A stretch of 64,000 nucleotides of DNA from Methanococcus voltae (lineage in GTDB: Archaea; AGJL01; Methanococci; Methanococcales; Methanococcaceae), in NCBI RefSeq assembly GCF_024807655.1, contig NZ_JANUCR010000001.1, positions 186,001 to 250,000 on the forward strand. The letters are read 5' to 3'. The position numbers and the translations under genes were made by a program. Each line of letters starts with the position of its first letter. Position 1 is the first letter of the stretch. The notes below the pieces were generated by a model that saw nothing but the letters and a program-made list of their open reading frames with translations, searched no databases and had not been told where the DNA came from. Positions 40,177-59,741 of this stretch are shown piece after piece.

Positions 40177-40596
40177 TTATTTGTTCAATGTAGTCAATTT
40201 TTTTAATTTAACTAACATATCGTCCCTTTTATCGTCTACAATTTTTTTATATGAAGATAAAGCACCTGTTGGACATACATCCACACAAATTTCTGAATCA
40301 AATTCCATACAATCATTACATTTTGTAGCAATTCCTGTAGCACCGTCTATTCTTATAGCCCCGATAGGACACACTTCCGTACATAAAGAACAGCCGATAC
40401 ATTTATCATTATCGAGAATTACCCTATCCCCTACTTTTTTAAGTGCATTTTCCGGGCATACTTGAATACACGGAGCACTTTCACAGTGCATACACCTAAT
40501 AGGAATGCCTTCAACGATAAATATTGCGTTATGAGGGCAGGAACGTTCACATCTTCCGCAATCCACACATAACTCGATGTTGGGCATTATTTTCAT
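40177..40596 (-). CDS. porF: Polyferredoxin PorF, pyruvate oxidoreductase accessory protein
   Basis: 139 residues with four cysteine clusters: CVDCGRCERSCP, CMHCESAPCIQVCP, CIGCSLCTEVCP and CNDCMEFDSEICVDVCP. Last gene of porGDABEF. In Methanococcus maripaludis, PorE and PorF are needed for electron transfer to pyruvate oxidoreductase in vivo and for its anabolic direction. The gene order here is identical. ATG follows AGTGGTGATGTT. Confidence 0.93.
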   Translation of the reverse strand: MKIMPNIELCVDCGRCERSCPHNAIFIVEGIPIRCMHCESAPCIQVCPENALKKVGDRVILDNDKCIGCSLCTEVCPIGAIRIDGATGIATKCNDCMEFDSEICVDVCPTGALSSYKKIVDDKRDDMLVKLKKLTTLNK

Positions 40597-40652: not shown

Positions 40653-41174
40653 TTACGGATTATTTACTCTTGAAGAAGAAGTTATTAAAGACATTAAACT
40701 TTTATTTTTAGATTTACCTGCTTTTGAACCTGGCTTTGTGATACTTGCTAAATTTGGTAAATTTTTGAGTTTTTTGGATAATACGATATCTTCAACATCT
40801 ACTACTTCTAAGCATCTTTTAGAACATGCTTTTATACAAGCACATTCGTCATTTTCTTCAATACATAAATCACATTTGTGAGCGGTTTTTTCATTTATGA
40901 AAATTGCACCAAATGGACAAGCTAATGCACATAATCCACAGCCGATACATAATTCCTCGTTTAAGTGAACTACGCCGTTGTTAACGTCTATTGCATTTAC
41001 AGGACATATTTCGCCACAAGGAGCTGAAGCACAGTGTTGGCACACTACTGGGAAGTATTCACCTTGATAATCGAGTATACTTATCCTACTTACCCCGTGA
41101 ACCTCTGAACATGCTTTCATGCAATCTCCACAATTATCACAAGATTTACTATCCAACATGACAATTTTTTTCAT
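40653..41174 (-). CDS. porE: Polyferredoxin PorE, pyruvate oxidoreductase accessory protein
   Basis: 173 residues. HycB-like arrangement: CDNCGDCMKACSEVHG near 13-28, CQHCASAPCGEICPVNAI, CIGCGLCALACPFGAI and CDLCIEENDECACIKAC, enough for four 4Fe-4S clusters. The basic C-terminus after ~150 (KPGSKAGKSKNKSLMSLITS) lacks cysteines and looks flexible. It lies 66 bp after porB and 56 bp before porF. Confidence 0.93.
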   Translation of the reverse strand: MKKIVMLDSKSCDNCGDCMKACSEVHGVSRISILDYQGEYFPVVCQHCASAPCGEICPVNAIDVNNGVVHLNEELCIGCGLCALACPFGAIFINEKTAHKCDLCIEENDECACIKACSKRCLEVVDVEDIVLSKKLKNLPNLASITKPGSKAGKSKNKSLMSLITSSSRVNNP

Positions 41175-41240: not shown

Positions 41241-42134
41241 TTAAATTCCCATCTCTTGACATTTGTGGTCGATTAATTGTTGCATTTCTTCAACGTCTTC
41301 TTCGGTTAAATGCCTGTATCTTTTTTGAGTTTTTAAGTACTCTTCAATTGAAATTCTTTTTGAAGGTTTGTATGTTACCCTATACTCACCATTTTCAATT
41401 TCGTAAAGTGGCCAAATTCCTGCTTTAACTGCCAATCTACCTAATTCAACTGTTTTAGATGCTGGATAACCCCAACCTGTTGTACAAGGCTGTAAAATTT
41501 GAATAAATGCTGGCCCATCAATTTCACAAGCTTTTTTAACTTTGTTCATAAAGTCTTCTGGGTAGCTAATCGAAGCTGTAGCCACATAGGGAATACCGTG
41601 AGCTGCCATAATCATAGGCATATTCTTCTTAGGTCTATTTTCTCCCCTAATTACACTACCTGCTGGTGATGTAGTTGTTGAAGCCATAAATGGAGTTGAA
41701 CCACTTCTTTGAACCCCTGTATTCATATATGCTTCGTTATCGTACATAATATATACCATATCGTGTCCTCTTTCCATTGCACCACTTAATGCTTGGAAAC
41801 CGATATCTGCTGTACCACCATCACCGCCGAAAGCGATTACATTTACTTTTTCGCCTTCGTAAAGTCCTCTTTTTCTTTTTAAGGATTTAACTGCTGCTTC
41901 GATACCACTTGCAACTGCTGCTGCGTTTTCAAATGCAACGTGCATCCAAGGCACTCTCCAAGCTGTTTCTGGGTATGGAGTTGTCATAACTTCGAGACAT
42001 CCGGTAGCGTTTGCTACGATGGTGTTTTTACCTGCTGCTTTTAAAGCTAATCTTGCAACAATTGCTGCTCCACAACCTGCACAACCTCTGTGTCCGGGAG
42101 CAAATAATTCTTCTCTTGGGAATTGTCTTGCCAT
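41241..42134 (-). CDS. porB: Pyruvate:ferredoxin oxidoreductase subunit beta
   Basis: 297 residues. Thiamine pyrophosphate-binding subunit: [20 protein letters not shown] near 104-123 and the downstream [17 protein letters not shown] complete the magnesium-TPP site. Cysteines near the N-terminus (GCAGCGAA) and C-terminal side coordinate a 4Fe-4S cluster. It catalyses reversible acetyl-CoA carboxylation to pyruvate, the first biosynthetic step after CO2 fixation. ATG follows TCGGTGGTAAG. Confidence 0.96.
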
Positions 42135-42273: not shown

Positions 42274-43434
42274 TTATTCTTTTAAGCCAATCCACTTTGT
42301 TTCAGTGTCTTTTGCTTCTTTTTCCACGTGTTCTATGATTTCCTTTATATGTGCCTTTTTTATGTCTCTTCCACCAAGTCCTACTATGTAGTTAGCGGTT
42401 TTAGCTTCTAAGAATGGAGCAACATCGGTAAATAAAGCACCCTTGTTTAAACCTAAGCTTATGTCTTTATCCAAGATTGCGATGTTTTTAGTACCTTTTA
42501 AAGCTTCTTTGATTTGTTCTGTAGGTAAAGGTCTGTAGCTGATGATTTTTAATAAACCGTATTCCTTACCTTCAGCTTTCAACTCATCAATTACATCTTT
42601 GATGGTTCCACATAATGAACCCATTGTAATCAAAACAGTTTCAGCTTTTTCAGTGTTGTAAGTCTCGATTAAACCATTTCCGTAAGCTCTACCGAATTTT
42701 TCAGCGAATTTGTCGTGAACTTCTTCTATAACTTTTAAAGCATTGTCTTGAGCTTGTTGTACATCATATCTTGTTTCCATATACCATTCTGGGTCGCCCA
42801 ACGCACCTTGTGTCATTGGTTTTTCAGGTCTTAAGTATGCGTGTTTAGGTTCGTATTGACCAACAAAGTTTAAAACTTTTTCTTTTTCAGGTATTTCCAC
42901 AGGTTCTACGGTGTGTGTTAAAATAAAACCGTCTAAGTTTACCATTATAGGCAATAAAACATTTTCGTTTTCTGCGATTTTAAATGCCTGAATAATTAAA
43001 TCCAAAGTTTCTTGGTTGTTTTCAGCATATAATTGAATCCATCCAGTATCTCTTTGTGAAATGCTGTCTTGCTGGTCGTTCCAGATATTAATAGGTGCTG
43101 ATAAAGCTCTGTTTGCGTTCATCATTACAATAGGCATTCTCATACCTGCTGCTGCGAATAATATCTCGTGCATTAACGCTAAACCTTGTGATGATGTTGC
43201 AGTGAATGTCCTTGCACCGGTTGCACTTGCACCGACACACGCACTTATTGCTGAGTGTTCGCTTTCTACTTTAATATATTCCGCATTCAATTCCCCATTA
43301 GCTACAAAGTCCGCTAATTTCTCTACAGATGTTGTCTGTGGGGTGATAGGATAAGCGGCTATAACATCAACGTCTGCCAATTTAGCAGCCTCTGCAGCTG
43401 CCGAAGTGCCGGTTATAACTTTAACATTTTGCAT
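42274..43434 (-). CDS. porA: Pyruvate:ferredoxin oxidoreductase subunit alpha
   Basis: 386 residues. Pyrimidine-binding half of the TPP site: VIAAYPITPQTTSVEKLADF near 25-44, with the catalytic glutamate in KVESEHSAIS and the GARTFTATSSQGLALMHEIL stretch. Domain II follows from ~250. ATG follows GGGAGGATAACC. The 139-bp gap to porB contains short ATTAAATT tandem words at 42224-42275. Confidence 0.96.
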   Translation of the reverse strand: MQNVKVITGTSAAAEAAKLADVDVIAAYPITPQTTSVEKLADFVANGELNAEYIKVESEHSAISACVGASATGARTFTATSSQGLALMHEILFAAAGMRMPIVMMNANRALSAPINIWNDQQDSISQRDTGWIQLYAENNQETLDLIIQAFKIAENENVLLPIMVNLDGFILTHTVEPVEIPEKEKVLNFVGQYEPKHAYLRPEKPMTQGALGDPEWYMETRYDVQQAQDNALKVIEEVHDKFAEKFGRAYGNGLIETYNTEKAETVLITMGSLCGTIKDVIDELKAEGKEYGLLKIISYRPLPTEQIKEALKGTKNIAILDKDISLGLNKGALFTDVAPFLEAKTANYIVGLGGRDIKKAHIKEIIEHVEKEAKDTETKWIGLKE

Positions 43435-43569: not shown

Positions 43570-43830
43570 TTATTTTTCTTCTCTTATTCCAGTAATTGCT
43601 TTCACAGGACATTCTTCTTCACAGATTAAGCAACCTTTACAGTAATCGTAATCAATTTTGAAATCTCCGTTTTCATCAGGTTGTATACATCCTTCAGGGC
43701 AGAATATATAACAATTTTCACATTTGATACATTTATCGTTGTCGAGGATAGGTTTGAAAACTCTCCAACTACCAGTTTTGTTATTAATTGAGTTTCCAGG
43801 TTCATATATAATAGTACCTTTATTAACCAT
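43570..43830 (-). CDS. porD: Pyruvate:ferredoxin oxidoreductase subunit delta
   Basis: 86 residues, two 4Fe-4S motifs CIKCENCYIFCP and CKGCLICEEECP, which carry electrons from the TPP site outward. Short N-terminal strand GSWRVFKPILD is typical. ATG follows ACAGGTGGACTT. Order porG-porD-porA-porB is standard for the four-subunit enzyme. Confidence 0.95.
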   Translation of the reverse strand: MVNKGTIIYEPGNSINNKTGSWRVFKPILDNDKCIKCENCYIFCPEGCIQPDENGDFKIDYDYCKGCLICEEECPVKAITGIREEK

Positions 43831-43906: not shown

Positions 43907-44434
43907 TTAATTTTGAACACTGTTATAAGCTTTTTCAGCTGCTGCTGCGTTCTTTTCTCCTAATTTACCAGGAAATGTTTCTTTAATAGCTTTTTTTAAT
44001 GATTCGAGACTAACTTGATTAGTTAAACCTGCAAAAGCCCCCACCATTGTGGTATTAACAATTGGTACTCCTAAAACGTCTAAGGAAATTCCTGTTGCAT
44101 CAATTGTTTTAACGTCATAACCATTTAAATCGATATCTTTTAATGTGTTTATTAAAATTAACCCGCCTTTCTGCAAACCGCTTGTAACGTCGATAGTATC
44201 CAATAATGTAGGGTCTTGGACAATTACAAAGTTCGGTGCGTATATTTGAGTTCTTAACCTTATTTTTTCATCGTTTATTCTTGTAAATGCCATTACCGGA
44301 GCACCCCTTCTTTCTACTCCAAAAAATGGGAATGCTTGACAGAATTTACCGTCGTAAAATGAAGCTTTGGCAAGAATTTGAGCAGCAGTCACTGCACCTT
44401 GTCCACCTCTTCCGTGAAACCTTACTTCAATCAT
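43907..44434 (-). CDS. porG: Pyruvate:ferredoxin oxidoreductase subunit gamma
   Basis: 175 residues. Begins [20 protein letters not shown], the universal gamma-subunit signature, with [20 protein letters not shown] near 35-54 and [15 protein letters not shown] later. It binds CoA with the alpha subunit. First gene of the operon; ATG follows TTGAGGTGGACAA. The leader upstream is long (about 220 nt) and contains a perfect palindrome, see 44647-44672. Confidence 0.95.
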
Positions 44435-44646
44435 TTGTCCACCTCAAAACGGTTACTTTTATATATTACGTTAAATTCACACGTTAATACATTATAAATA
44501 ATATAGTAATTTTGATTTTTGATTTTTGATTATTGGTTAGTTGAAATTTTTAATTTTTAATTTTTAATGTATATTCAATAATTTGTAATGAATATGTTCT
44601 CAAATATTAATTTGTAAAATGTAATAAATAAACTGTAAGATATTAG

Positions 44647-44672
44647 AATTATAATGATTAATCATTATAATT
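44647..44672. promoter_or_regulatory. Perfect 26-bp palindrome at inferred por transcription start
   Basis: Arm AATTATAATGATT (44647-44659) is followed immediately by its exact reverse complement (44660-44672). It begins 7 bp downstream of the minus-strand TTTATATA box and covers the predicted start near 44656, the usual place for an archaeal repressor operator. Symmetry is seen; function inferred. Confidence 0.6.
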
Positions 44673-44678
44673 ATATAA

Positions 44679-44686
44679 TATATAAA
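44679..44686 (-). promoter_or_regulatory. TATA box for the por operon
   Basis: Minus strand TTTATATA, full match, preceded by AAAAATG as a possible BRE. Predicted start near 44656 gives a leader of about 220 nt. The dyad GGCAAATGCC (44701-44710) is 14 bp upstream, in activator position. Confidence 0.55.
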
Positions 44687-44928
44687 CATTTTTGTTATAA
44701 GGCAAATGCCGTATATAATGTCGATAGAATTATTATAAAAATTAACTAAATTTATCCAAATATTAAAAATAAATTCATAAAATGTAAACTTTTTTAAAAA
44801 AATAATAAATATAGGAATATATCTAATACATATAACTCAGATAAATAACGTATTATAAAAATTAATAACATAGAATTATGGTTAAATAAAATAATATTAA
44901 TGAATAGTAGTACTAATAATAATTATTA

Positions 44929-58184: not shown

Positions 58185-58403
58185 AAATTCACCTAAATTT
58201 TTTAAATAATATATAAATTTGAGATTGTGTAAATAACTAATTACATAACTATTAAAAAAATAATATAAAAAAGAATAGTATGGTACAGTAAACACGTCAT
58301 AAATTAATTTATAAACAAATTTAAAAAAAAGAAAAAATTTAATTGATTTTAATAATTATATATTTATGTACAATTAGATATAACTAAATATAATTAATTA
58401 TAT

Positions 58404-59741
58404 TTAGTTTAAAATTTTTACAGTGCTGTCATCTACATATTCAACTGTCATTGTAGATTCACCATTATATAATCCTTTTTTCATCGCAATAACGCAAGCT
58501 TTAGTACCGTATTTATCGGAACCTGCAAGAACTAAGATTTCACTGTTTTTATTGAATGGATTGGTTATCTTTTGAATAATACCTTTATTTTCCCCAGGAT
58601 TATCATTTGAAACTTGGAAAATTAATCCATCTTTAACTTTCTCTGTTGCTTGGTTAGCTACGGGACCGCCTACAAGAATTAAATCTGCACTTGACATCAA
58701 TAATTCATCTTGGTCAATTATATTAACTGAACCTTGGAAGTCTATGATAGTATCTTGCAATTTATTGTTTTTGTACAAGAATATTTGGTCATCCCACTCG
58801 TCATCTTCATTATTTTCAACTTTTACAGCAAATACGTTATTACCGAAACTTTTTGAACCTTCTTCAAGGTCTGCAATATAATCTGCATTTTTAATTACTT
58901 TGAAGAATACTTCACTTGTATTTGAACCAACGTCTGCAAGTTGTATATTATAATTCAAGAAATTGAAATTAGCAGGCAATTCATCTGCATTTCTCTGTTC
59001 TAATTCGATTGTTTTATCTTCTATATTAACCCTAATATCAGAATAACCTTCTAAATCTTCCCCTTTTTCAAATTCATATGATTTATATACATTGAAGAAA
59101 AATATTTTTGTTTTATCTGATTCTAACATATCATCATATTTTAAAGCGATATCTTCGCCATCTACTTTATGTACATCGTCTATGAATAATTTAAAGTTTT
59201 CAACTCTTTTACCATTTCTCAATACATCAATTAAAAGCTCCCCTTCTGTGTAAGCCAATAATTTAAATGTAATATCGCCCACGGTAAATGAATCTGATGC
59301 TGAGGTATCATTTATTAAATTACCTAAAACTATTTTATCACGGCCGGATTCTAAAACGGTATAACTACTACCCATAAATGAAACTTCGTCGCCTACTTCA
59401 TCGGAATCCAGGGTTTCACTATATTCTATATCTTTATAAATTACAGTTGTGCCTTCCCTACTAAATGAAACTTCGAGTTTTTCAGAGTTATCATTTAATT
59501 CGAATTCATCAATTGCAGGTACGAAATAGATTAAAGTTTCTAAAACTTTCAATTTGTTATCGTCAGTAACTGAAAGTTCTCTTTTTGAATAATAGCTATC
59601 TAAAAGCATATCCGCATATTCTGCATCTACTTTATCTTTATTAACTACGATAAGAGGGCTATTTAGCGAATAACCCATCGAAATTGGAGCCATTACCATT
59701 ATAGTCAATATTAAAATTGCTATATACTTTGGCAAATTCAT
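58404..59741 (-). CDS. S-layer-family secreted protein
   Basis: 445 residues. Signal peptide (residues ~1-24, YIAILILTIMVMAPISMGYS), then the N-terminal S-layer domain and the C-terminal domain with its hallmark ADLILVGGPVANQATEKVKD near 353-372. This resembles the methanococcal S-layer family but is shorter and lacks the repeats of the main surface-layer protein, so it may be a minor or paralogous component. One N-glycosylation sequon, SNTS, occurs near 272. ATG follows CGTGGTGATTTA. Confidence 0.8.
   Translation of the reverse strand: MNLPKYIAILILTIMVMAPISMGYSLNSPLIVVNKDKVDAEYADMLLDSYYSKRELSVTDDNKLKVLETLIYFVPAIDEFELNDNSEKLEVSFSREGTTVIYKDIEYSETLDSDEVGDEVSFMGSSYTVLESGRDKIVLGNLINDTSASDSFTVGDITFKLLAYTEGELLIDVLRNGKRVENFKLFIDDVHKVDGEDIALKYDDMLESDKTKIFFFNVYKSYEFEKGEDLEGYSDIRVNIEDKTIELEQRNADELPANFNFLNYNIQLADVGSNTSEVFFKVIKNADYIADLEEGSKSFGNNVFAVKVENNEDDEWDDQIFLYKNNKLQDTIIDFQGSVNIIDQDELLMSSADLILVGGPVANQATEKVKDGLIFQVSNDNPGENKGIIQKITNPFNKNSEILVLAGSDKYGTKACVIAMKKGLYNGESTMTVEYVDDSTVKILN

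Follow-up and report, generated by a model that had tools for sequence, protein, structure and literature searches.

A palindromic dyad at the por promoter as the probable operator of a carbon-assimilation regulon in the Methanococcales

The 26-bp palindrome at the por promoter of Methanococcus voltae is probably the operator of a carbon-assimilation regulon that extends across the Methanococcales and is read by a dimeric regulator, most likely a repressor. This assignment follows from the set of genes that share the site, from reversed-pattern controls with low or zero counts, and from the absence of the site from outgroups. The palindrome is located in a 64-kb stretch of M. voltae DNA (the window; Table 1), where the initial annotation had noted a perfect palindrome with 13-bp arms over the predicted start of the por operon and had proposed that it is an operator. 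The palindrome is present as described (AATTATAATGATTAATCATTATAATT, 44647-44672), and its proposed role is supported by conservation throughout the order and by the target set. What is new is that the por site appears to define a regulon conserved through the order.

Table 1. Features of the por promoter and operon in the M. voltae window.
Feature	Position	Strand	Remark
Further conserved element of the por promoter, ATACGGCATTTGCCTTA (order consensus TTTCGACAATTGACKAA)	44698..44714	-	Contains GGCAAATGCC
por TATA box TTTATATA	44686-44679	-	TATA box here kept in 30/30 por leaders
26-bp putative operator dyad AATTATAATGATTAATCATTATAATT, perfectly symmetric	44647-44672		Site of the por/cdh/ehb/acs motif
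Predicted (candidate) por transcription start	44656	-	Placed by the usual TATA spacing only
por leader, ~220 nt	44435..44655	-	
porG	43907..44434	-	First gene of the putatively controlled operon
porD	43570..43830	-	
porA	42274..43434	-	
porB	41241..42134	-	
porE, polyferredoxin-like	40653..41174	-	
porF, polyferredoxin-like	40177..40596	-	

A TATA box lies upstream of the palindrome, as annotated, at a measured distance of 6 bp rather than 7 bp. No mapped por 5' end was found in open papers, and PMC10450193 holds no por start site. The leader that follows the predicted start is ~220 nt long, versus ~30-80 nt in most relatives outside this clade; measured from the TATA box to the start codon, the distance is ~226-252 nt in the voltae clade (L003-L005) and 55-111 nt in almost all of the remaining Methanococcales (L006-L032), and the long por leader is thus lineage-specific. 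When the window was shuffled 30 times, no perfect palindrome with 13-bp arms arose, and shuffling of the por intergenic region (600 nt, 15% G+C) produced one in 0.25% of cases, so that a chance origin of the por palindrome is unlikely; in DNA this AT-rich, conservation is the deciding criterion. One more perfect palindrome with arms of 13 bp occurs in the window (58383-58408); it lies where a minus-strand gene (58404-59741) has its 3' end and is possibly terminator-like.

The initial annotation had made its proposal depend on conservation of the dyad in close relatives, and the element is indeed conserved well beyond them: a TATA box and, after it, the core TAAYGATTDATMATKA are present in 30/30 por leaders of Methanococcales, representing five genera and two families. 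Perfect symmetry (26/26 positions) is confined to the M. voltae genome and its two nearest relatives, and the por sites elsewhere in the order are symmetric at 12-18 of the 26 positions; the 26-bp palindrome is therefore a fully symmetric version of ATTTRTMATKATTAATMATKAYAAAT, an imperfect dyad with which it shares its centre. The most conserved part of the dyad is this centre, GATTAATMAT. The site is missing from 28 of the 29 outgroup por leaders (Thermococci, Archaeoglobi, Methanobrevibacter and others), which have far lower scores. The exception, one Altiarchaeales por leader with a score of 25.8 (L266, about 852-877), counts against a site limited to the order.

A search for further copies of the 13-bp arm, which had been recommended, locates a copy matching at 25 of 26 positions upstream of a BASS/SBF-family transporter gene in the M. 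voltae genome, and this copy is kept in two sister genomes despite diverged flanks. Among 36 Methanococcales genomes, the core pattern TAAYGATTDATNATKA has 204 matches versus 31 when the pattern is reversed as a control (17 of these 31 in the AT-rich voltae clade), and a longer exact pattern has matches in 25 of the 36 genomes versus none for its reversed control. With a search matrix trained on the por sites alone, and with each target judged against 200 shuffles, sites are found at cdhA (encoding the alpha subunit of CODH/ACS) in 26/26 genomes, at acs in nine of 11, at ehbA in 17 of 28 (18 if G024, in which the site is at a contig start, is included) and at the BASS transporter gene in all three voltae-like genomes; for each of these targets, none of the 200 shuffles scores as high. 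The genomes that have no site at ehbA or acs count against a uniform regulon.

The neighbours of other sites were read from the DNA and named in part by Pfam/NCBIfam, the names ehbN, thiC, thi4 and vor being due to sequence recognition and not to a family search that named them. In subsets of genomes, the site is also found at the CODH/ACS genes cdhC and cdhD, at ehbN (divergent from thiC), at thi4, and at bioW, which has two to three sites in some species. Further site-bearing genes include the AMP-forming acs, the gene of the acetate transporter SatP/YaaH, an aspartate-type aminotransferase gene divergent from ehb, cobaltochelatase-type genes and AhaH. The M. voltae genome has sites at por, BASS, vor, satP, bioW and thi4, some of them weaker, and functionally linked operons within one genome have the site in common. 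In methanogens, CODH/ACS and Por carry out CO2 fixation with electrons that Ehb provides, and concerted changes of these enzymes are known. The control of por by carbon status that had been suggested gains support, at the level of sequence, from the presence of CODH/ACS, Acs, Ehb and acetate uptake among the other site-bearing genes. The cdhA gene is absent from the voltae clade (G000, G002 and G006), which is consistent with acetate-requiring Methanococcus. In thi4 promoters of the voltae-like clade (L086, L088, L089), the dyad and an adjoining similar copy lie just upstream of TATA.

The geometry of the sites fits a repressor: counted from the first T of TATA, the centre of the dyad lies 23-49 nt further downstream in most por, cdhA, acs and ehbA promoters, which places it on the expected start or shortly past it; the dyad is near the TATA box and the start, at a position conserved among orthologues. 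A protein bound there would be expected to block transcription, which makes it unlikely that the dyad is instead an activator site from which TBP/TFB or RNA polymerase is recruited when carbon is short. An activator would explain why all of the targets, wanted together under C2/C3 shortage, share a site, and the site immediately precedes TATA at thi4 and at a small-protein/TusA operon divergent from bioW, where this placement could signify activation.

In its asymmetric form, the dyad has sense orientation in 86 cases versus 13, several of the 13 being at divergent promoters, and such polarity, which a plain symmetric dimer site does not need, counts against a site of that simple kind. It would suit an RNA-level element in the 5' leader, either a hairpin or an mRNA binding site, as would the fact that the cdhA site can fall within the leader; this is nevertheless very improbable, since the por site would be transcribed only in part, given the predicted start, the symmetry at divergent ehb promoters suits DNA, and the M. 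voltae por leader is less structured than its shuffles (z = +1.16). It is hardly credible that the dyad is a core-promoter or initiator element common to strong genes in general, although its proximity to the start would also suit one: the distance from TATA to the core varies (17-31 nt at por, larger at cdhA), which disfavours an initiator role, and each genome has only a handful of sites, with most strong matches at carbon and cofactor genes. The sense bias of the asymmetric dyad holds at cdh, acs and satP as well.

A more specific version of the repressor-type operator would identify its regulator as the XRE (HTH_3) protein whose gene directly precedes ehaA, and it is doubtful that this is so. 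The protein is present in single copy in 36/36 Methanococcales and has no full-length homologue in 25 outgroup genomes; its HTH is near-invariant and is confidently predicted in a structure model, the rest of which has no clear PDB match. The XRE protein and the sites co-occur in the same genomes, a pattern that many order-specific genes would likewise show, and the Altiarchaeales genome with the strong por-leader match is without the protein. A por-type dyad is found at the XRE gene's own promoter in 10 Methanocaldococcus, two Methanothermococcus-like and two M. maripaludis-like genomes, but not in the M. voltae genome, G002, G004 or G006, and nearly all XRE promoters, including those without a por-type dyad, carry a different palindrome, GAATAATRTTATTC, next to TATA. 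Because of this palindrome of its own, the XRE protein may mainly control eha, and GAATAATRTTATTC is probably the site through which XRE regulates its own synthesis and the eha operon (L346, L349, L110-L139).

Upstream of the TATA box, GGCAAATGCC had been annotated as a second dyad, 14 bp further upstream; its location is correct (44701-44710), but its status as a dyad is not upheld, as the symmetry is not conserved and sister genomes have CGACATTTGAC in its place, with no dyad. Instead, GGCAAATGCC is the local divergent copy of a conserved element, TTTCGACAATTGACKAA, the CG of which precedes TATA by 25 nt at almost every por promoter. This element may plausibly be an activator site. A second genome-wide regulon acting through it was considered and rejected, the exact matches being few, with no excess over the reversed control in the genomes and no excess in the window either. 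In G001, the form TWCGDCAWTNNNCKAA has only two exact matches, at por and acs (L248, L253).

What is observed of the por-type dyad (its presence, conservation, targets and position) suggests how a repressor could act through it. A sequence-specific dimeric regulator would bind the palindrome over the por transcription start, and a single protein would read all copies of the site. The same site would then control the making of acetyl-CoA from CO2 (CODH/ACS) or acetate (SatP and AMP-Acs), the making of pyruvate (Por) and the supply of low-potential electrons (Ehb), to which certain species would add cofactors (thi4, thiC, bioW, chelatase) and 2-oxoacid enzymes (vor). With C2/C3 intermediates, the putative effectors, in plentiful supply, the bound regulator would block RNA polymerase, and when they run short it would be released. 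It seems fairly likely that one putative regulator has, since the ancestor of the Methanococcales, coordinated the autotrophic carbon core (CODH/ACS, Por and Ehb), acetate scavenging (SatP and Acs) and the cofactors of those enzymes by means of a polar, sense-oriented start-site operator, and that this constitutes an undescribed master carbon-fixation regulon of hydrogenotrophic methanogens. At the least, the site is probably the mark of a system controlling carbon fixation that has not been described so far. Being common to cdh, por, ehb, acs and acetate uptake, the 26-bp site offers a bait for isolation of the regulator, a means of predicting the controlled genes species by species, and a handle for engineering the flux of acetyl-CoA and pyruvate in Methanococcus.

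Some of the genes in question are subject to concerted changes, which lends the proposed regulon independent support: CODH/ACS, POR and AMP-Acs were reportedly all raised in an ehb mutant described by Porat et al. in 2006. Proteomics of M. maripaludis shows a joint rise of Por, Vor and AMP-Acs when nitrogen is limiting, and a fall of CODH/ACS and Acs when phosphate is limiting (PMC2723118). These carbon-assimilation responses involve the same genes as the por-type site (por, CODH/ACS, AMP-acs and vor), which change partly together; no operator or regulator for them, and no such regulon, was found in open papers.

Of the known systems, the NrpR operators of Methanococcus resemble the por dyad in being short palindromes at the starts of metabolic operons, with repressor geometry and several target operons in the same organisms, but they differ in sequence and in gene set. 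Membership of por in the NrpR regulon is rejected: as the initial annotation had observed, the palindrome is not an NrpR operator, there being no GGAA-N6-TTCC near por, and the single match in the window (46579) is at chance level. The BirA biotin operator has the consensus TTGTAAACC-N14/15-GGTTTACAA, and BirA operators share with the por-type dyad the outer TTGT/ACAA halves of some copies and, in some species, the target bioW. In the por-type dyad, however, the centre GATTAATMAT is conserved and most targets are not biotin genes; a BirA regulon is rejected as well, since TTGTAAACC halves around a non-conserved spacer of 14-15 bp are not found and the centre is the most conserved part. The sites of Ptr2 and other Lrp-type archaeal activators, GGACGATTTTCGTCC, are located upstream of TATA; they too are dyads in Methanocaldococcus promoters, and the second por element is similarly upstream, whereas the main por dyad is downstream of TATA and unrelated to them in sequence.
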